Below, one piece after another: positions 7,217 through 38,274 of a stretch of 64,000 nt of DNA. The notes beneath the pieces are model-generated. The model saw nothing but the letters and a program-made list of their open reading frames with translations. It had not been told where the DNA came from and made no database searches. How positions within the stretch are numbered: the first letter of the stretch is position 1; every line of letters begins with the position of its first letter. Source of the stretch: Arthrobacter sp. Hiyo4 (GTDB lineage Bacteria; Actinomycetota; Actinomycetes; Actinomycetales; Micrococcaceae); NCBI GenBank assembly GCA_002370555.1, contig AP014718.1, forward strand, positions 1,674,001 through 1,738,000. Direction: 5' to 3'. The position numbers and the translations under genes were made by a program.

Positions 7217-7239
7217 GCCTGCCTGGCGCGGTGGCCGGG

Positions 7240-7596: not shown

Positions 7597-10308
7597 GTGA
7601 TATCGCCAACCGACTCCGCCGCCGTCCCTGCTGGCCCCTCTCGTACCGGCACCTTTGATCTGGCGGTCATCGGCACCGGCCTGGCCTTCGCTGAATCGCT
7701 CGCCGAGTTGTCCTCTGTGCTGCGCGCCGGTGGTGCGGCGGGTACGGCGGTGGTGCAGGCGCCGCCCGGCACCGGCAAAACAACGCTTGTCCCGCCGCTG
7801 CTCGCCAACCTTGCCGCGCCTGCAGGAATGGCCAAGCGGGTGGTGGTCACCCAGCCGAGGCGGGTCGCTGCGCGTGCCGCCGCCCGGCGACTGGCCTCGT
7901 TGGACGGCAGCCGGATCGGAGACCGCGTGGGGTACACCGTCCGCGGTGAACGCCAGGCCGGCCCGCCACGCTGGTGGAGTTTGTCACGCCGGGGATCCTG
8001 CTGCGGCGCCTGCTCGATGATCCCGGCCTGGAGAGCACCCGCGCGGTGATCCTGGACGAGGTCCATGAACGCGGCCTCGAAACCGACCTGCTGCTGGGGA
8101 TGCTCGCCGAAGTGCGGCAGCTGCGCGGCGACCTCACTATGGTGGCCATGTCCGCCACCCTGGACGCGCCCCGCTTCGCCGCCCTGATGGGGGGCGGGCC
8201 GCGGATGCAGGTACAGGACACACTGTGACAGGACATGAAGGGACAGCGGACGACGGCGGCGGGCCGGCTCCGGTCGTCGACTGCCCCTCAGCGCTGTACC
8301 CCCTGGCAGTGGAGTGGGTACCCGCCGCCGGGCACGGCTGGATGACCGTGGGGTCACGCGCGGATTCCTCGACCACGTGGCCGATACAGCCGCCCAGGCC
8401 CACACCGCCGCCATGGCGGAGGACGGGCGCACCGATGCGCTGGTCTTTGTCCCGGGAGCATGGGAGGTTTCCTATGTGGCGGCCCGCCTCCGCGGCCGGG
8501 CTGCCCCGGAACTGACGTGCTGGAGCTCCACGGCCAGGTCAGCCCAGCCGAACAGGACCAGGCAGTTTCGGGCGCCGGCCGGGCGGCCCGGCACGGATCA
8601 TCGTGTCCACGGATCTGGCCGAGTCATCCCTGACCGTCCCCGGAGTGCGCCTCGTCATCGATTCCGGGCTGACCCGCGAACCCCGCCGTGATGCCAGCCG
8701 CGGGATGTCCGGGCTGGTCACTGTTTCCTGCTCCCGGGCATCAGCCGAACAGCGGGCTGGCCGGGCCGCGCGGCAGGGCCCGGGCCGGGTGGTCCGGTGC
8801 TACGACCAGCGGACCTATGGTGCCGCGCCGGCGCACGTGACGCCGGAGATCGCCGTGGCGGACCTGACCGGGGCGGCCCTGGTCCTGGCCTGCTGGGGAT
8901 CACCGGGCGGCGCCGGGCTGGCGCTGCCGGATGCACCTCCCGCAGCAGCCATGGGCGAGGCTGTTGAAGTCCTGCGCGAACTCGGAGCTGTGGCCCGCGA
9001 CGGACATGCCACCGCGGTGGGCGGACGCTGGCCAGGGTCCCGGCCGATCCGCGGCTGGCCCGCGCACTGCTCGACGGCGCAGCCGCCGTAGGCCACCGCG
9101 CCGCAGCGGAAGCCGTGGCACTCGTCGCCGGGACCAGCGGCCCCGGCGGCCGACCTCACCCGGCTCCTGACCGGCCTGCGCAGCGGAAAGGACCCCGCCG
9201 CCAGGCGCTGGGCGGAGGACGTCCGCCGGCTGGAGACGATCGCGCGCAAGGAAGGCTCCGGCGTCGGCCCGTCCGCCATTGCGTCCCTGGTGAGGACCGC
9301 GCCGGCGACCGCTGCGGAGGCGGTGGGCGTCGTCGTCGCGCTGGCGTTCCCGGACCGCGTGGCCGGCGGGTCCCGGGCGATGGCCCGGCGCGGTACCTGC
9401 TGTCGTCCGGCACGCGTGCGGGATTGCCGGCGGGCAGTCCGCTCACCGGGCATGAGTGGCTGGCCGTGGCGGAAGTTTCACGCGCCGCCGGCCGGGACGC
9501 AGCCGGTACCGGCGCGGTGATCCGGTCAGCCGCGCCGCTGAGTGTCGACGCCGCAGAGGCCGCCGCCGGGCACCTCCTGACCGACACGGTGGAAGCGCAG
9601 TTCAACCAGGGCCGGGTGAAGGCCAGGCGGGAACGCCGGCTGGGTGCCATCAGCCTGTCCTCCACCCCCGTCCGCCCGTCCGCCGAGGAGGGCCGTGCCG
9701 CCGTTGCCCGTGCCCTCGCAACGGAGGGGCTGGGAACGATCGGATGGTCGACGGCGGCAGACGCGTTGCGCCGCCGCCTCGCCTTGCTGCGCCGCGAACT
9801 GGGTGAGCCGTGGCCCGACGTTTCGGAACGGTCATTGCTTGCCCGGCTGGACTCCTGGCTGGGACCGGAGCTCGAGAAACTGGCTGGCGGCGCCGCCACC
9901 AGCAGCATCGACCTCACCGACCCCCTGCGGCGGCTGCTGCCCTGGCCGGAAGCGGTCCGCCTGGCGGAGCTGGTGCCGGAGGCACTGAAAGTACCCAGCG
10001 GATCGATGGTGCGGATCGACTACCCTGACGTAGTGGGAAAAGCCGGCCGGCCGGTTGTTGCGGTCAAGCTGCAGGAGTGCTTTGGGTGGGCTGAGACGCC
10101 GCGGCTGGTGGACGGCAGGGTTCCTGTCCTGTTCCACCTGCTCTCACCCGCGCGGCGGCCGCTCGCGGTGACGGATGACCTGGCGTCGTTCTGGTCGGGG
10201 CCGTACGCGCAGGTGCGGTCCGAGATGCGCGGCCGTTACCCCAGGCATCCGTGGCCGGAGGATCCCTGGACGGCGCTGCCGACGGCCCGGACCAAAGCCC
10301 GAATGTAG
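7597..10308 (+). CDS. hrpB: ATP-dependent helicase HrpB, multiple frameshifts
   Basis: DEAH-box RNA helicase-like protein of the HrpB family. GTG start at 7597. Helicase motifs are APPGTGKTT (I), TQPRRVAARAAARRLA (Ia), DEVHERGLETDLLLG (II), SATLDA (III), STDLAESSLTVPGVRLVIDS (IV/V region) and SAEQRAGRAARQGPG (VI). The long C-terminal HrpB-specific region continues to a TAG at 10308. About 904 residues, slightly long but normal for actinobacterial HrpB. At least six frame breaks, near 7.97, 8.23, 8.34, 8.51, 8.57 and 9.03 kb. The biological role of HrpB is poorly defined in bacteria. Confidence 0.85.
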
Positions 10309-10431
10309 CGCCTGCCCGCTGGCGGCCTTTCCTTCGGTGGTTGCACCCGGTGAGATGTCCGATACGTCGCCGAAACCTTGCGTCGACCCGCTGAAACATG
10401 GCGCAGTTAGGCTCGTTCCTACTTGGACAAC

Positions 10432-10445
10432 GTGGTCCAGACCAC
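10432..10445. promoter_or_regulatory. DasR/NagR-type operator (dre-like palindrome)
   Basis: GTGGTCCAGACCAC is a palindrome with perfect 6-bp arms (GTGGTC/GACCAC). It matches the dre core TGGTCTAGACCA, bound by the GntR-family N-acetylglucosamine regulator DasR of actinobacteria, at 11 of 12 positions. It lies between a possible -35 (TTGGAC, 10423-10428) and -10 (CATACG, 10446-10451), so binding would occlude the promoter of the 50-codon ORF that follows. The match is seen directly; regulation by GlcNAc is inferred. Confidence 0.6.
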
Positions 10446-10464
10446 CATACGAAGGGACACAATT

Positions 10465-10617
10465 ATGTTGCTTTTGAGTAGCCTGAACTTGCTCTTTGAC
10501 GCCGGCCGTGGAGAGGGCAGCCGCCCGCACAATGGCGGGATAGGGAAGACCGATTTCCCCACCGGCCGGTTGACCTCCACCGCCTGGGAAGGCTGGTGGC
10601 ACGAGGACGCTGCGTAA
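10465..10617 (+). CDS. Small hypothetical protein behind a DasR-like operator
   Basis: 50-residue ORF starting MLLLSSLNLLFDAGRGEG, with GAAGG about 10 nt upstream. It begins 20 bp downstream of a strong GntR/DasR-type palindrome, which argues that something here is transcribed under regulation. The peptide has a short hydrophobic N-terminus and a polar, Gly/Trp-containing C-terminus (TAWEGWWHEDAA); no family recognised. It is convergent with the hydrolase gene. Given the indel-rich assembly it could also be the undamaged start of a longer product. Confidence 0.4.
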   Translation: MLLLSSLNLLFDAGRGEGSRPHNGGIGKTDFPTGRLTSTAWEGWWHEDAA

Positions 10618-10643
10618 CCGGGCCGGTACGCCTGGCTGAGGGG

Positions 10644-11449
10644 TCAGGCGCGGCTCCGAATGAACTCGGCCACCTTCGGCGCCAGCGACGCTCCGATCTC
10701 TGCGGCGTCGCGTTTCTTTCCTGCGACGGCAAAGGAATGGTCACCGCCGTCGATCCAGTCCAGGACAGCGGACGGGCCGATCCGGGAGACCACGCCCTCC
10801 AGCAGATCCGGCGTCGCAAAGGTGTCGCGCGTGCCCTGCAGGAACAACATGGGGAGCGTGAGCCCGTAGAGGTGCTCGTCGCGGAGCTTTTCAGGCTTTC
10901 CGGGCGGGTGGAGGGGATAGCCGAGGTACACGAGACCGGCAGTGTCCATTCCGTCGGCAACTGCCATGGACGCCATCCGGCCGCCAAACGATTTGCCGGC
11001 AGCCCATACCGGTCCGGTGTCACCGTGCCCGGTTCCTCGCCGCATTGCTTCATGCATGGCGGCGCGCCAGGCCGCGATGGCTGCCGGCGGCCGGTCCGGG
11101 AATTTCCGGCCGGCCTCGCGGTAGGGGAAGTTGAAGCGCAAGGTGGTAACGCCGTCGTCGTTCAGTCCACGGGTGAAACCGCTCATGAACGGGTGCTCCA
11201 TACCGGCGCCTGCCGGCGGCCGGTCCGGGAATTTCCGGCCGGCCTCGCGGTAGGGGAAGTTGAAGCGCAAGGTGGTAACGCCGTCGTCGTTCAGTCCACG
11301 GGTGAAACCGCTCATGAACGGGTGCTCCATACCGGCGCCTGCCCCGTGCGCCAGCACCAGCGTGGCGAAGGGCTGTCCGGGCGGGCGTAAACGCCGGAGA
11401 CCTCAACGTCGCCGACGGGAAAGGTGACAGGGGATTCAGCTACGGCCAT
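10644..11449 (-). CDS. Alpha/beta hydrolase (dienelactone-hydrolase-like) with internal tandem duplication and frameshift
   Basis: Alpha/beta-fold hydrolase of the small KANL3/Tex30-like group. Start ATG at 11449 (MAVAESPVTFPVGDVEVSGV). A frame break near 11385 leads into LAHGAGAGMEHPFMSG (oxyanion-loop region). The nucleophile elbow is AAGKSFGGRMAS (G-K-S-F-G); later LFLQGTRDTFATP carries the acidic residue and DGGDHSFAVAGK the catalytic His. A 43-residue segment running from GAGMEHPF to FPDRPPA is present twice in tandem, encoded by a 129-bp exact duplication. Without it the protein would be about 225 residues, normal for the family. The extra copy would insert a second strand-helix unit before the nucleophile and probably disturbs folding. 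Substrate unknown. Confidence 0.7.
11081..11343. repeat. 129-bp exact tandem duplication
   Basis: Bases 11081-11214 and 11210-11343 are identical at an offset of 129 bp. The copies share the 5-bp junction CTGCC, the pattern expected of a tandem duplication arising at a short homology. The unit is in frame (43 codons) inside the hydrolase gene. No mismatch separates the copies, so the event is recent or an assembly error. Confidence 0.95.
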
Positions 11450-11515
11450 AGGTCCATGATGCCGGATCGCCGGCAGCCCTGGGCGCCGGGGTGCTGACGC
11501 CCGCGTGGCGCGGGG

Positions 11516-11521
11516 TAGGTT
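11516..11521 (+). promoter_or_regulatory. -10 box of a probable leaderless transcript (LigD-type polymerase)
   Basis: TAGGTT ends 6 nt before the ATG at 11528; no ribosome-binding site. Confidence 0.45.
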
Positions 11522-11527
11522 GTCCCC

Positions 11528-12548
11528 ATGGCGAGCGAACAGACCACCCTCACTGTCCCGGGACCGCACGGCGAGCGCGAGATGCGTGTTTCCAGCCCAG
11601 CAGGGTGCTCTGGCCGGATCTCGGTCTGACCAAGCTGGACCTCGCACGCTACATGGTGGATGTGGGGGAGGCGTTCATTGCCGCGAACGGTGACCGGCCG
11701 GTGGCGCTGCAGAGGTATTCGGACAACGTCGAGGGGGACCAGTTCTTTTCGAAGAACCCGCCCAAGGGAGCACCTGAGTTCATCCGCTCCGTGAAGGTGG
11801 TCTTTCCGAGCGCGCGCTCGCACCCCATGCTCGTCCTGGACGAACCCGCCGCGGCCGTATGGGCGGTGCAGATGAATACGGTGGTGTTCCACCCGTGGCC
11901 GTCCCATACAGCGAACACCGATAACCCGGACCAGCTGCGCATCGACCTCGATCCGCAGCCGGGCACAGACTTCGACGACGCCGTCCCGGCTGCCCTGGCG
12001 ATGAAGGAGGTGCTGGCGGAGGCCGGGCTGGACACGTTCATCAAGACATCGGGGAACCGCGGCCTGCACGTCTACGCTCCCATCGAGCCCACCCACGAAT
12101 TCCTGGACGTCCGCCACGCGGTGATCGCTGCGGCCCGCGAGCTGGAGCGGCGGATACCGGACAAGGTCACCACGGCCTGGTGGAAGGAGGAACGCGGCGT
12201 GAAGGTGTTCCTGGACTTCAACCAGGCGAACCGGGACCGGACCATCGCCGGCGCGTACAGCCCCCGCGCGCTGGCCCATGCGCCGGTCTCCTGCCCCATC
12301 AGCTGGGACGAACTGGGCAGCGCGGATCCCAAGGACTTCACCATCCTGACGGTCCCCGAGCGGCTCAGGACCGTGGGCGATCCTTGGGCAGACATGAAGG
12401 CGCATCCGGGCACCATCGACGTGCTGTTGGAGTGGTGGGAGCGGGACCTCAAGGCCGGCCTCGGCGAACTGCCGTTCCCGCCGGACTACCCGAAGATGCC
12501 CGGTGAGCCCCGCGGGTGCAGCCGAGCCGGGCCCGCAAACAGGACTGA
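11528..12548 (+). CDS. Non-homologous end-joining polymerase (LigD polymerase domain, stand-alone), frameshifted
   Basis: Stand-alone primase/polymerase domain (Pol/Prim, LigD-Pol), which adds nucleotides at DNA breaks during Ku/LigD end joining. Start MASEQTTLTVPGPHGEREMR; the frame breaks near 11600 and one extra C in CCC gives VSSPSRVLWPDLGLTK. Family motifs are QRYSDNVEGDQFFSKNPP, the metal-binding pair in LRIDLDPQPG, and SGNRGLHVYAP (nucleotide pocket). A second C undercall near 12513 restores an end reading VQPSRARKQD and a stop at 12548. About 340 residues, with no ligase or nuclease domain attached and none adjacent in this window. Probably made from a leaderless mRNA. Confidence 0.9.
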
Positions 12549-12562
12549 GTCCGGTCGAGCGG

Positions 12563-13183
12563 CTACTCGAACCGGGACGGGTCGCCGGTGCCGCGACGCA
12601 CCACCTCGGCCACTCCGCTGGAATAGTCGATCACCGTGGTGGGCTCTGCCCCGCAGTCTCCGGAATCGATGACCGCGTCCACCTCGTGCTCAAGGCGTTC
12701 CTTGATTTCCCAGCCCTGCGTCAGCGGGTCTTCCTCGTCCGGGAGCAGCAGGGTGCTGGAGAGAAGGGGCTCGCCGAGTTCGGCCAGCAGCGCCTGGACC
12801 ACCCGGTTGTCCGGGATGCGCACGCCCACGGTCTTTTTCTTCGGGTGCAGCAGCCGGCGCGGCACTTCCTTGGTGGCAGGCAGGATAAACGTGTAGCTTC
12901 CCGGCGTGACGGCTTTAATCGCGCGGAAGACGTCGTTGCCGATGTTCACGAACTGTCCAAGCTGGGCGAAATCCTTGCACACCAGCGTGAAGTGGTGCTT
13001 GTCGTCCAGCTTGCGGATATTCCGGATCCGGTCCAGGGCATCCTTGTTGCCCAGCTGGGCCCCGAGGGCGTAGCAGGAGTCCGTGGGGTAGGCGATCAGC
13101 CCGCCGTCGAGCACGATCTTCACGGCCTGCATGATCGCGCGGGGCTGGGGATCCTGGGGATGAACATCAAAGTATCTGGCCAT
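12563..13183 (-). CDS. YrdC/Sua5-family protein (YciO-like)
   Basis: Intact 206-residue protein of the Sua5/YciO/YrdC family, whose best-known members make threonylcarbamoyl-AMP for tRNA t6A37. Start MARYFDVHPQDPQPRAIMQA. The nucleotide/threonine-binding fold is shown by GGLIAYPTDSCYALGAQLGN, KHHFTLVCKDF and PGSYTFILPATKEVPRRLL. The pattern resembles the YciO subgroup (HPQDPQPR start, KKKTVGVRIPDN) more than the true TsaC/Sua5 enzyme, so t6A synthesis is not certain. Convergent with the LigD-type polymerase gene. One of the few genes here with no frameshift. Confidence 0.85.
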   Translation of the reverse strand: MARYFDVHPQDPQPRAIMQAVKIVLDGGLIAYPTDSCYALGAQLGNKDALDRIRNIRKLDDKHHFTLVCKDFAQLGQFVNIGNDVFRAIKAVTPGSYTFILPATKEVPRRLLHPKKKTVGVRIPDNRVVQALLAELGEPLLSSTLLLPDEEDPLTQGWEIKERLEHEVDAVIDSGDCGAEPTTVIDYSSGVAEVVRRGTGDPSRFE

Positions 13184-14100: not shown

Positions 14101-15215
14101 TCAGCCCACATGCACCCACGGCCGCTTGGTGACATCCGGTTCGGCTTTCGCGCAGGATCTCGCGCGTCACGGGGGCGATCTCGCCTTCGCCAGCACCAGG
14201 AAGCGCAGGAGGTTCACGGCTGGGTTGCCTTCGGTCCAGCGGAAGTAGACGTGCGGCATCAGCCCAAGTTCAAAGGACCCCAGCACCCTCGAGAGCAGCG
14301 AGATGCTGATGATCCCCAGGATGAAGAAGCCGGCAATCCGGATGCCTTCGGGACGTTCAAAGATATTGGCGACCGTTGTGTAGACAAACAGCACCGAGAT
14401 GATGCCGAAGCCGACGGTCCGCTTGCGCTGGGGAAGACGAGCAGGGCGATGGCCACCGCCATCAGCGGATTCCCGTGGGAGGTGTTAAGGGTCTGCCACC
14501 ACTCACCGACGGCCACCGGATGGGCGGCTGCCTCCGCGAGCGACCACGCGATGACCATCACGTTAAGCCCCAGGTACAGGATCACCAGCACAACGGCGAC
14601 GCCGATGGCCTCCTTGAACCCGCGCAGGAAAACGGCAGCGAGCACGGCAAGCAGGACCAGCGTTACGGCCACCTCCTGCCCGTGCAGGGCGTCCGGTGCA
14701 AACGGATTCTCGATCAGGTGTGCCGTGGCGTCGGCGGCGGACAGCGTCATGGTGATCATGAAGTCGGTGGCCGCGAAACCCAGCAGCACCAGCACCAGCA
14801 GCTTGCCCCGCCACTTGGGGAGCAGCCGCTCCAGCATGGCAATGGACCCTTCGCCGCGGTGGCTCTCGCCGGCAACCCGGCGGTAGACGGGGAGGGCGCC
14901 GAACAGGGTCACGGCCACCAGGACAAGCGTTGCCAAGGGGGAGATGGCACCGGCCGCGAGCGCCGCACTGGCCGGCTGGTAGCCCAGCGTGGAGAAGTAG
15001 TCCACGCCGGTCAGGCACATCACCCGCCACCAGTGCTGCTTATTTTTTTCGTCCGCGCGTCCGCCCGGCCCCTGATGGGTGCCCTTGGCATCTTCCAATC
15101 CATGCAGCAACCAACTGCCAAGGGCCGCCTTCCGAATCCAGTACTGCCCACTCGCCTTGGCGCCGGATTCGGGCAGATCTTGACGGATCCTTAACGCCCG
15201 TATGAGCACATCCAC
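14101..15215 (-). CDS. APC-family permease, frameshifted and apparently internally deleted
   Basis: Integral-membrane permease of the amino acid-polyamine-organocation superfamily, from the subgroup with RVMCLTGVDYFSTLGYQPA near the N-terminus. Further landmarks are HRGEGSIAMLERLLPKW, GFAATDFMITMTLSAADATA, FLRGFKEAIGVAVV and, at the C-terminus, PHVYFRWTEGNPAVNLLRF, then after frame correction APVTREILRE and a stop at 14101 (ending RPWVHVG). From memory of the family, full members have about 640 residues; here only about 370 are encoded. ALLVFP joins directly to QRKRTVGFG near 14430, and SFELG to LMPHVYFRW near 14262, where I expect about 170 and 100 more residues. The start is uncertain; GTG at 15215 is the most upstream candidate. 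Divergent from a KdpDE-like pair, which hints at potassium or osmotic control. Confidence 0.65.
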
Positions 15216-19165: not shown

Positions 19166-19223
19166 TGCCATGGACGCCTACGATCGATAAGGTTTCACGC
19201 CGCTTCTGTTAACTCCACAGGTT

Positions 19224-20185
19224 ATGGTGGCGCTGGTCATCGCACTGGCACTTTTTTCGACTTCACTAACGGCTTCCACGACACCGCGAATGCGATGGCT
19301 ACACTCATCGCCACCGGTGCCATTAAACCGAAGACCGCGGTGACGCTCGCCGCAATCCTGAACCAGGTCGGTGCCTTCCTCTCGACGGAAGTGGCCAAAA
19401 CAGTGTCCGGCGGCATCATCCGGGAAGGCTCCGACGGTGTCCAGATCACCCCGGACATTATTTTCGCCGGCCTTATGGGTGCCATCCTCTGGAACATGAT
19501 CACCTGGCTCAAGGGACTCCCGTCGAGCTCATCCCATGCACTCTTCGGCGGGCTGATCGGCACGGCCATCGCCGGCATCGGGTTCAATTGAGTGAACCTG
19601 GAAACCCTGCCGGCTCGCGTATGCCTTGACTTCCCGGCACGATCCGGAAACCGGCAGCAAGCTGACGCACAAACGCGGCGGGTTCCGCACCGGCCAGATC
19701 TTCACGTCCGGCCTCGTGGCGCTGGCCACAGAACCAACGATGCACAGAAGACCATGGGCATCGTCACACTGGTGCTGATTTCCGCCGGCACCCGGTCCCC
19801 GGGTGCGGGCCCGCAGTTCTGGGTCATAGCGGCATGTGCCCTGGCCATCCCAGGGATTCGCAGCCGTGACCAGCACCGCCTCTGTCATCCTTGCGTCTTC
19901 CCACCTGGGCTTCGCCCTGTCCCCTACCCAGGTGGCGTCAGGGTCCGTCATCGGGTCCGGAATGGGCCGTAAGGGCACCACGGTGCGGTGGAACATGGTG
20001 GGCAAGATCGCCCTGGGCTGGCTGTTTACACTTCCCGCCGCCGGCGTTGTGGGCGCGCTGACCGCGCTGCTCGTGAAGACCGGCGTGGTGGTGTGGTGAT
20101 TGCCGCCGTCGCCGGCACCGCCGCGGTGCTGTTTATGTTCGCCTACTCCCGCAAGTCCGCGGTGACCGTTGTAGTCCTGTACTGA
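19224..20185 (+). CDS. PiT-family inorganic phosphate transporter, frameshifted and apparently internally deleted
   Basis: Low-affinity phosphate/cation symporter of the PiT family. Recognisable blocks: the signature DFTNGFHDTANAMAT after one added T near 19255; KGLPSSSSHALFGGLIGTAI; LTHKRGGFRTGQIFTSGLVA and HGTNDAQKTMG-like NDAQKTMGIVTLVLIS after frame shifts near 19665 and 19730; then FAAVTSTASVILASSHLGFA and ASGSVIGSGMGRKGTTVRWN. Two places look shortened: GIGFN runs almost directly into LAYALTSRHDPETGSK, and CALAI joins FAAVTSTAS where the family has a further loop (about 20 residues, GTY...GG type). A missing G near 20093 separates the last helix IAAVAGTAAVLFMFAYSRKS. About 320 residues here against roughly 370-400 usual. 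The N-terminus also looks short. Confidence 0.75.
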
Positions 20186-24235: not shown

Positions 24236-24354
24236 GCTGCCGGGAACGAATGGGCGGGGCAAGAAGGACAGCTGGAAGTGGACCATCATGATCCATCAGC
24301 CAGACTGGATCGGCGCGGCCGTGTTGCTGTTGGCCAGGCCCCGGATTCATTGGT

Positions 24355-24367: not shown

Positions 24368-25665
24368 GTGGCTGAACTGAGTGATGACTATGAAATCCGG
24401 CGCTTCCCAGCGGCATCCCAGGGCGAGGCGGGTTATCCCGACGCCGAATCATGGGTGAAGGCGGTCGCCTTTGGCTTCCACGAATCCATGCGGACACCGG
24501 AGCATGTTGCCAAATCCTTGGAGACCTACGCAGCCGACCGGCGGATCTTCACCGGCGCCTACCAGACACGGGAAGTTGCGCCTGGGTCGCTCCCTGCGGA
24601 CGTACCGGTGGCAACCTTCGGCACCCTGCGCAAAACACTCAACATCGGCTTCGGCCGGCTGCTGGAGACGCAACTGGTCACGGCCGTGACGGTCCGGACC
24701 TCGCATCGGCGGCGCGGCCTGCTGCGCCGGATGATGTCCGAGGACCTGGCCCTGGCGAAGGACGATGGCCTGGCAATGGCCGCCCTGACAGCGTCCGAGG
24801 GCTCCATCTATGGACGCTTTGGCTACGGCGTGGCCAGCTTCGAACGGTCCGTGAAAGTGGACACCACTGCCCGGTTCCGGCTCAATCACCACGCCGTCGG
24901 TACCGTGGACGTCGCGGACCCCGGGTGCTTCTGGACCTGGCGCCGGTCGTCTTCGACCGTGTGCACCGCCTGACGCCGGGATCGATCGGCCGCCAGGACT
25001 GGTACCGCCAGCTGGCTTCAGGGTCCTTGGGCCGCGAGGGCAAGGAAGATCCTGCCGTCAAGGTGGCACTGCACTACGGCCCCGACGGCGCCGTGGACGG
25101 CTACGTGTCCTACAAATTCCTTGGCTGGGACACCGAGCCCTACACCATGCAGGTGGTGGACCTCGTGGCGGCCACGAACGTGGCGTACCTGGAGCTCTGG
25201 CAGTTCCTGGCTGCCATCGACCTGGTGGAACGCGTCACGTGGGACGAAGCGCCGCTGGATGACCCGCTCACGTGGGCACTGGCCGATCCCCGCTGCATCG
25301 ATTCCTCAGACAGCCGGGACATGCTCTGGCTCCGCATCCTGGACGTGGCCCAAGCGCTGGAAGCAAGGCATTACCCGGTGGAGGGAAGGCTGGTGCTCGA
25401 GGTGCAGGACCCGCTTGGCCTCACGGCTGGAACGTTTGCCGTGGACGTCAGCGGCGGCGAGGCCGCCGTCGTGCATCTGGAAGCTGCGCAGGATCCGGAC
25501 CTGACGCTGGATGTCTCCGCACTGTCATCCATCTACCTCGGCGCCGTCAGCCCGGTGACGCTGACGGCGGCGGGCAGGATCCGGGAACACACCCGGGGCG
25601 CGGCGCTGCGGGCACGCGGGTTGTTCGCGGTGGAACGCGCCACGCACTGCCTCACGCACTTCTGA
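24368..25665 (+). CDS. Eis-family GNAT N-acetyltransferase, frameshifted
   Basis: Acetyltransferase of the Eis (enhanced intracellular survival) family, which acetylates amines such as aminoglycosides or polyamines. GTG start, VAELSDDYEIRRFP. The acetyl-CoA loop is VRTSHRRRGLLRRMMSEDL; the catalytic-Tyr region is ASEGSIYGRFGYGVASFE. The middle and C-terminal sterol-carrier-like domains follow (VSYKFLGWDTEPYTMQVVDL, EGRLVLEVQDPLGLTAGTF). As in the characterised Eis enzyme, the chain ends in Phe (CLTHF), whose carboxylate serves in catalysis there. One frame break near 24925 (extra G gives RVLLDLAPVVFDRV). About 432 residues, normal length. The substrate is inferred only by family. Confidence 0.85.
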
Positions 25666-28044: not shown

Positions 28045-28714
28045 CGAGCCACTCCGTCCCGGCCGGCGTGAGCACGGTTCTCCCGGCGGTGAGTGAGAAC
28101 ACGCGATCGGTGGCTGCAGAAACTTCCGCGGCATCGTCAGGCACGGCCAGGCGAAGGACCGTGTCCTGTGCTCCGTAGGTGGTTTCCGCCATCACAAACC
28201 CGGCCGCGCGAAGATCGTTCTCCAGCCGTCCCGCGGCGGCGTGCGGCACCGACGCCGAACAGATCCGCAGCCGGCTGCGGCGAACCAGCGGGGCCCGTTG
28301 CAGGCCGCGGAAACCGACTCGGAATACGCACGCACCAGCCCGCCCGCCCCAGCAGGATGCCGCCGAAGTAGCGGACGACGACGGCGCTGACGTCGCTGAT
28401 GTCCGTCATACCCGGCGCCGTTTCCCTTTTGATGATGGCCTCCAGCATGGGGATGCCGCCGTGCCTGAGGGCTCGCCGTCGTCATTGGAGCGTTGGATGC
28501 CCCGGTCCGGCCCCAGGACGAACGCCGAGCAGTGGTGGCGGGCATCGTGGAACTCGCGGCGCAGGGCGGCCACCAGATCCCGTGCGGTGTCCTCATTGTC
28601 GGCGCGGCGCAGCACGGTAATGAACCTGGAGCGTTTGATCTCGATCTCGTGCCGGAACTCCGGCCCCAAAGCGAGCGTGGTGTAGGCGGTGGCCCGGCTG
28701 TCTTGCTCTTGCAC
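28028..28714 (-). CDS. IMPACT/YigZ-family protein, frameshifted
   Basis: Member of the YigZ/IMPACT family (UPF0029), whose eukaryotic relatives act on translational stress signalling; the bacterial role is undefined. GTG start at 28714. The N-terminal domain shows EIEIKRSRFITVLRRADNED, HHCSAFVLGPDRGIQRSNDD and GEPSGTA, then after a break near 28465 GIPMLEAIIKRETAPGMTDI and VVVRYFGGILLG; a further break near 28345 and one near 28290 precede the C-terminal domain (RLENDLRAAGFVMAETTYGA). About 229 residues, normal. First gene of a two-gene unit with the acetyltransferase. Confidence 0.8.
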
Positions 28715-28726: not shown

Positions 28727-28730
28727 TTCC

Positions 28731-28890
28731 GGTGGACGGGCCCACGCCGCCTGGGTTCCTCGGCTGAGCGCAGCGATTTTATTGGGCGGTGGATGGGCCC
28801 ACGCTGCCAGGGTTCCCTGGCTGAGCGCAGCGATTTTATTGGGCGGTGGATGGGCCCACGCTGCCAGGGTTCCTTGGCTGAGCGCAGCGA
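28731..28890. repeat. 57-bp tandem repeat, nearly three copies
   Basis: Copies begin at 28731, 28788 and 28845; the third is cut short after about 46 bp. Units 2 and 3 differ at one position over the shared part; unit 1 differs at several. Each unit holds the core GCCAGGG-TT-CCCTGGC (perfect in unit 2, kept as a hairpin with wobble pairs in the others) and GCTGAGCGCAGC. The block fills the gap between the divergent yigZ-type and coaE genes. The unit is 19 codons long, so it reads as a 19-residue repeat on both strands, but I see no reason to call it protein-coding. Confidence 0.9.
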
Positions 28891-37033: not shown

Positions 37034-38274
37034 CTAGTGCCAGCGAAGCTGCGATGTTCGGTAGCGGACGGGTCCCTTGCTGTACTCCAGACTCCAGCGG
37101 CACGCCGTCCGCCATGCTGGGCGGCCTAACATATCGCAGGCGCCCGTAGGGCTGTCCATCACGCGGAGGTCCGGGGCAGGCAGGGAACCGCCGTGACTGG
37201 ACACCGCGGGCAGCCGCAACAATTCTTCAGCTGTGCGGGCCAGGGAAAGCCGGGCAGCGCCGGCCAGGTCCGCTTCGAAGCCGTTCGGCCAGCGACGCGA
37301 TTGCTGCCGCCGCCAGGCCATAACCGGTGGCACGATCCAGTGCCTGAACTGGAAGCGCCCCCGGCTGCCACCCGTCATCAGTCGTGCGGCCATACCATTC
37401 GGCAATGCCGCAAGCCGCCTGTACCAAGCTGTCAAAACCGCGCCATCCGTTCCAAGGGCCGCCGCTGCCCCAGGCGCTGAGCGTGACGATCACGAGGTCG
37501 GGCCGGGCCAGCAACAGCGCTTCGGGCGTCAGCCCAAACACATCGCTCAAGTCCGGAAGCTGGGGCGGGTCGATGCGCAGAACGTCCGCGCCCAGGGCGC
37601 CCAGGAGGCGTGTTGCCGTGGGCCCGGCAATGACGCCTGTCAGGTCCAGCACCTTGAGCCCGGCCAGGGGGTGACGCGGAACTGCCGAAGGAACCCACCG
37701 GGAGAGCTGCGGACTTTCACTGGCTGACGGTGGCGGACGGGAGATTCTGATCCATGGACCGGAGCTGGCCGCCGCATAAATGGGGGTCGCGATCCACTCG
37801 GCCCGTGTGCGCACCGCAGCAGCGACGCCGTTGTTTGCCATGATGGCTTCCTCGGCGGCCCCGGACGTCGTTCCTAACAGGGCGTTTTCCACGTCCTGTG
37901 GTGTGCTCACGGAGAGGGCCGATGCCAGCCGGACTGCGTGGTGGGGTAGTCGGCGTGCAGGCGGATCCAGCCCTCCGACGTGCGCTGGAAGCCGGGCATC
38001 GGGGCGAACCCTTCAGGTTTGACGCCCGCGATCCGCAGGTGTCCCTGCGAATCGAACGCCGCCGCGGTGGCTCCTGATTCCAGGAGTACTTCCCCGGAAC
38101 GCCAACAAGCGCGTTCAGCGACGTCGCTGCTGCCTGGACAGCCCCCCAAAGCCAGTCCCTCGACGTCCAGCTGCCCCTTCCGCCACTGCCGTGGACCGTT
38201 GGAAGGTGCCACGGGCTGGGCCTTCAGGGCTTCACAACCCGAAGACTGCCGGTCAGGTCGGGGACGGAGTCCAT
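37034..38274 (-). CDS. CaiB/BaiF-type CoA transferase family protein, frameshifted
   Basis: Family III CoA-transferase-like protein. ATG at 38274 (MDSVPDLTGSLRVVKP); one extra C near 38229 continues LKAQPVAPSNGPRQWRKGQL. The diagnostic block is HPLAGLKVLDLTGVIAGPTA, then TRLLGALGADVLRIDPP, VIVTLSAWGSGGPWNGWRGF and DSLVQAACGIAEWYGR. This is the second half-domain of a CaiB-like enzyme, with a shorter N-terminal region, as in a group of actinobacterial proteins of about 450 residues. Here about 413 residues, with breaks near 38229, 38135, 37945 and 37265. The C-terminus restored by frame change reads GPVRYRTSQLRWH. The CoA donor and acceptor are unknown. Confidence 0.75.

Follow-up and report, generated by a model that had tools for sequence, protein, structure and literature searches.

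The window analysed here is a stretch of 64 kb (64,000 nucleotides, positions 1674001–1738000) of the single 3,779,248-base contig of Arthrobacter sp. Hiyo4, and positions 10644–11449 of the window, on the reverse strand, hold a gene whose product is, by its sequence, a putative hydrolase. The frame as first displayed, which opens with an internal GTG at 11357 and runs as far as the stop at 10644, scored 199.1 bits against the alpha/beta hydrolase family Abhydrolase_11 (PF20408; Pfam gathering cut-off 27), and the orthologue of Pseudarthrobacter sp. MDT3-9 (locus L051), the nearest relative in the alignment around the gene, scored 171.7 bits. A search of NCBIfam returned no family for the hydrolase, and its sequence relatives in the PDB were weak (best 3trd, E = 0.00025). 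An earlier sequence-only reading had called this frame an alpha/beta hydrolase, which holds; the GTG at 11357 is not its true start, which comparison with orthologues places at the ATG at 11449–11447. Near 11371, a tract of C on the gene strand is one base shorter than in four relatives (L051, L052, L053 and L077), a 1-bp deletion that shifts the frame; the true start is thereby put out of frame and the record encodes no intact hydrolase. The break, missed in that reading, is most likely a sequencing error like dozens more in the record; record-wide errors of this one-base kind were not visible to it.

The hydrolase gene is adjoined at 11491–12672 by a frame with a LigD primase-polymerase domain (PF21686, 295.5 bits), which carries 1-bp deletions relative to four relatives at approximately 11598 and 12511. 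On the other side, at 10025–10044, an HrpB helicase gene is without approximately 90 bp found in three related genomes (G184, G227 and G140); the helicase is one frame of 964 amino acids in G184 and several frames in the window, with 1-bp deletions.

Within the hydrolase gene lie two adjacent copies of a 129-bp unit, both on the reverse strand: one at 11210–11338 (5′-side in the gene, first in the protein) and one at 11081–11209 (3′-side, second in the protein). TRF and direct comparison agreed that these are 100% identical, with 0 of 129 sites differing, and as 129 is 3 × 43 the unit comprises 43 codons in frame. The run of identity at a lag of 129 is 134 bp (129 + 5) long, the pentamer CTGCC (GGCAG on the gene strand) at 11081–11085 and 11210–11214 being present a third time at 11339–11343 as a breakpoint microhomology. 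The exact in-frame tandem duplication with a shared CTGCC described from the sequence alone was therefore recovered in full, and it is the sole complete exact tandem copy in the 64-kb window at lags of 20–1000. The 134 bp of exact identity rule out a chance repeat. An old duplication is unlikely, since at a divergence of 5.4%, the distance to L051, the probability of finding all 129 sites identical is p = 0.0008; the two copies diverge by at most 2.3% (95% upper bound).

The second copy stops approximately 32 residues ahead of the putative nucleophile, the serine of a GKSFGG elbow (codon at 10989–10991, reverse strand), whose role is suggested by the GxSxG motif and which the window frame shares with all 36 aligned orthologues. 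S123, D178 and H207 (window frame numbering) are all invariant across these 37 sequences and all lie outside the duplicated unit; motif and modelled fold point to them as a Ser-Asp-His triad. The fold was examined in a model of the single-copy orthologue L051 (pLDDT 89.7), which matched many alpha/beta hydrolases (e.g. 2o2g, TM 0.75/0.78, these values being for the orthologue and not for the duplicated protein) and has the fold of many esterases and dienelactone hydrolases. In this model the unit corresponds to residues ~38–80, part of which are of low confidence, and comprises the loop after the third strand, a helix (44–55), a strand (58–63) and the next loop; it begins in a loop and finishes at the first residues of a helix. 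With the unit doubled, an additional helix and strand separate the HGAGAG loop from the helix preceding the GKSFGG elbow. The suggestion that a whole structural unit had been added is upheld to the extent that the unit is a helix plus the next core strand in the modelled orthologue; as part of a working enzyme it is doubtful, the frame being broken near 11371. An AlphaFold model of the duplicated frame had a pLDDT of 70.6 versus 89.7 for L051, with copy 1 at ~35, although its alignment was biased towards copy 2: the relatives' cores had been matched to that copy and their N-terminal parts to copy 1. Because of this bias the model cannot distinguish the copy packed in the core from the other.

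Comparison with orthologues in close relatives, proposed alongside the original observation, was run on 109 other loci (sets of 29 and 80 that overlap in genomes, from collections with one genome per species). All 109 carried one unit, two being found solely in the window's own genome, and a duplication shared by a clade was thus not found. A genus search recovered the gene in 201 of 206 genomes, that of the window (G000) included; among the matches listed, all but that of G000 begin at query residue 25 or later. The orthologues of Pseudarthrobacter sp. MDT3-9 (L051) and Arthrobacter sp. Soil762 (L052) have 97% and 96% protein identity respectively over the matched part, and their DNA is ~94–95% identical over 6.4 kb. 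Like the window, these single-copy PF20408 genes occupy the same locus with collinear flanking DNA and encode the GKSFGG elbow and the invariant D and H; unlike the window, they have one 43-residue unit and an intact start. Identity between the copies had been taken to mean either a very recent event or an assembly error, and this proved the right pair of explanations given the absence of any difference at 129 sites against ~5.4% to L051 over the region, and of any doubling in the 109 loci.

Slippage or template switching is expected to leave exact copies side by side and a short stretch of homology at the breakpoint, and both are present here (129 bp and 5 bp). On the gene strand, the single copy of L051, L052 and G184 has GGCAG on either side; that of L053, L054, L056 and L077 does not. 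As it is present in near relatives, the 5-bp homology most likely preceded the duplication. Random breakpoints simulated on L051 had homology of at least 5 bp in 2.0% of cases at a lag of 129 and in 1.0% at lags of 30–500. A single-copy ancestor would have carried two copies of GGCAG 129 bp apart, and replication slippage or a strand template switch between these sites most likely produced the tandem doubling. In the resulting protein the loop-helix-strand unit would occur twice, after the HGAGAG loop and ahead of the helix that precedes the nucleophile, and one of the two would have to be excluded from the core sheet as a loop or make the sheet wider. The likeliest outcome would be an enzyme that is misfolded, weakened or has one copy looped out; it would most probably be crippled or lost, leaving the duplication neutral and prone to collapse back.

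We consider that the locus carries a real, recent and strain-specific tandem duplication in a chromosomal hydrolase gene of Arthrobacter sp. Hiyo4 (a Pseudarthrobacter-like strain), probably an inactivating one, and would put the probability of this at roughly 60%. It is favoured because the copies are exact, the 5-bp microhomology pre-exists in three relatives and each of the 109 other loci is single-copy; and because no other exact unit longer than 36 bp and no locally bad consensus was found in the parts of the record scanned, nor any such unit in 400 kb of Hiyo8. Counted against it are the error-ridden record, the lack of the doubling in any second genome examined, and the window's sharp differences of 68–327 bp (plus one of 562 bp), which could be assembly losses, together with shortenings in the dcw region. 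The main competitor, with a smaller but substantial probability, is that the Sprai-corrected PacBio assembly or its manual curation repeated 129 bp in error, the strain being single-copy and its enzyme intact. Hiyo4 was assembled from PacBio RS II reads with the Sprai pipeline, followed by manual curation, with a stated coverage of 79x (PMC4712596); the manual step is a point for the artefact and the coverage a point against it. For long-read assemblies, errors that span tens to hundreds of bp have likewise been reported (PMC8442456), and the single copy at all 109 other loci also counts for an artefact.

Support for an artefact also comes from the quality of the consensus. Alignment to G184, G227 and G140 gave 91 deletions and 5 insertions of 1 bp that are specific to the window, in contrast to the few and balanced 1-bp gaps among the relatives themselves (14–20 each way per 67–69 kb). 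Matches of 100 columns or fewer, or of 85% identity or less, were dropped from the counts; the comparison among relatives used 400 columns and 88%. The frames of rpoB, atpA, an ATP-synthase-subunit-like protein and a second gyrB-like protein are each broken up in the record but complete, or almost complete, in G184; gyrB, secA and ftsZ are whole in the record. A cell cannot live without rpoB, and the 1-bp deletions are for this reason almost surely sequencing errors. Against G184 there are 99 in the window (1.6 per kb) and 124 in five essential-gene regions (1.1 per kb), and across the stretches compared, surroundings of essential genes included, the rate is ~0.8–2.4 per kb; for the window, L183–L184, L187, L189, L191 and L193 it is roughly 0.8–1.6 per kb. 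Most fall in runs of at least three equal bases, the figures being 70 of 99 for the window, 28 of 33 for the rpo-ribosomal region and 19 of 26 for the dcw region. No local excess was found around the duplication, positions 10001–12000 having three window-specific 1-bp deletions against a mean of ~2.9 per 2 kb; a locally bad consensus was therefore not seen. The duplication is of a different kind from these one-base errors.

An artefact is also made less probable by the rarity of such units. A scan of ~572 kb of the record (the 64-kb window, 400 kb and 118 kb, with a 10-kb overlap) revealed no second exact tandem unit above 36 bp, and none was present in 400 kb of Hiyo8, which was sequenced and assembled in the same way, or in 400 kb of G184. 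For exact units above 36 bp, the scanned parts of the record and of Hiyo8 gave no sign of an assembly prone to duplication. Shorter exact units do exist, such as those of 24 bp (L048) and 32 bp (Hiyo8). The site is distant from the contig ends, and microhomology of this length that was there beforehand would be met at just 1–2% of random junctions; both count further against an artefact.

Larger length changes bear on the same question. The window is without several pieces present in G184, G227 and G140: 327 bp at 14265, 92–93 bp at 15132, and 104, 68 and 74 bp at 19222, 19610 and 19849; a further 562 bp at 14430 is missing by comparison with G184 and G227, the G140 comparison differing there. 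With the exception of the change at 37538, all of the sharp missing pieces belong to the interior or the start of two genes that look transporter-like from their translations. At 14265–15134 a frame that in G184 encodes a transporter-like protein of 660 amino acids is interrupted by three deletions (327, 562 and 93 bp) with 0–3 bp of homology, which represent either a decayed gene or assembly losses. The other, at 19222–20182, is a phosphate-permease-like gene (414 amino acids in G184; name from the translation) with window-specific deletions of 104, 68, 74 and 183 bp, that of 104 bp at 19222 removing the start of the frame. At 37537–37538 there is a sharp 135-bp deletion relative to all three genomes, within a 475-amino-acid frame of G184.

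Clean changes of at least 50 bp numbered 8 in 61.4 kb of the window versus 1 in 112.4 kb of five essential-gene regions (binomial p = 0.0015 by event; p = 0.056 by gene, 4 versus 1), the one control change retained, −100 in the gyrB region, overlapping just a 102-amino-acid frame in G184. Junctions with more than 2 unaligned record bases, more than 10 overlapping bases or a change below 50 bp were left out. Those dropped in the window were −1304 at 691, −37 at 1046, −24 at 7233, −90 at 10025, −183 at 20164, −622 at 24248, −919 at 25663 and +160 at 28703; those dropped in the controls were six in rpo, three in dcw, one in atp and one in secA. The contrast fits real mutations that spare essential genes better than random assembly errors, although clean changes of this size were likewise absent from a further 30 kb that had not been picked for its essential genes, which suggests that the window is simply rich in them and leaves the selection argument weak. 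At short repeats of the dcw region, G184 exceeds the record by 24, 30 and 45 bp; these shortenings of the record may be natural or due to collapse.

Two further readings accept the duplication as real and differ from ours on the fate of the enzyme. That the enlarged protein folds, with one unit looped out or as an extra strand in the sheet, and keeps or changes its activity, selected or not, is highly improbable; were it so, the locus would show an alpha/beta hydrolase caught in nature as it gained a helix-strand unit, ahead of any divergence. A maintained functional innovation, in which an enzyme enlarged by an extra helix-strand unit is expressed and selected, would fit the in-frame unit, whose boundaries in the modelled single-copy enzyme are a loop and the first residues of a helix and which leaves the putative triad residues outside it, but can be all but set aside given zero divergence between the copies (no sign of age or selection), the doubling in 0 of 109 other loci, the broken frame near 11371 and the poor model of the duplicated frame, for all the bias of its alignment to copy 2.

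The duplication has a published parallel in blaKPC variants, for which in-frame insertions of 3–84 bp by tandem duplication are described, with slippage or, for those above 10 bp, microhomology of 2–5 bp put forward as the source (PMC12593533). They resemble the duplication in the hydrolase gene in that a short piece of an enzyme gene is repeated in tandem and in frame and microhomology is proposed; the hydrolase unit, in contrast, is longer (129 bp), is known from assembled sequence alone and has no known selection or phenotype attached. The residual errors described for long-read assemblies resemble those of the Hiyo4 record in being homopolymer errors, with errors of tens to hundreds of bp also mentioned, whereas an exact tandem copy with pre-existing microhomology, as in the hydrolase gene, is not among the errors described in the available part of that account (PMC8442456).

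Nothing in the duplication is new in kind. Short tandem duplications are a common class of mutation, and the event alone matters little, being ordinary whether real or artefactual. The error load of the record is the more useful side result. The counts of coding sequences published for Hiyo4 (5,120) and Hiyo8 (7,041) were considered a possible sign of extra genes, and nonsense mutations in desA and desB of Hiyo4 were reported (PMC4712596); frameshift errors may be an alternative cause of the high counts and of the desA and desB mutations. The inflated gene count of this 'complete' genome, and gene losses deduced from it, should be treated with care, and its structural oddities need to be checked against reads.

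Two other repeats were observed in the course of the comparisons. Just ahead of a dephospho-CoA kinase-like frame (name from the translation), positions 28730–28890 of the window hold a 57-bp tandem repeat of 2.8 copies with 94% matches. In the ribosomal protein region (L183 and L184; G000:2700001–2740000), approximately 25.8–26.1 kb from the start on the reverse strand, there is an insertion that is absent there in G184 and contains short GTGAGAGAGCGTC-type repeats in both orientations.
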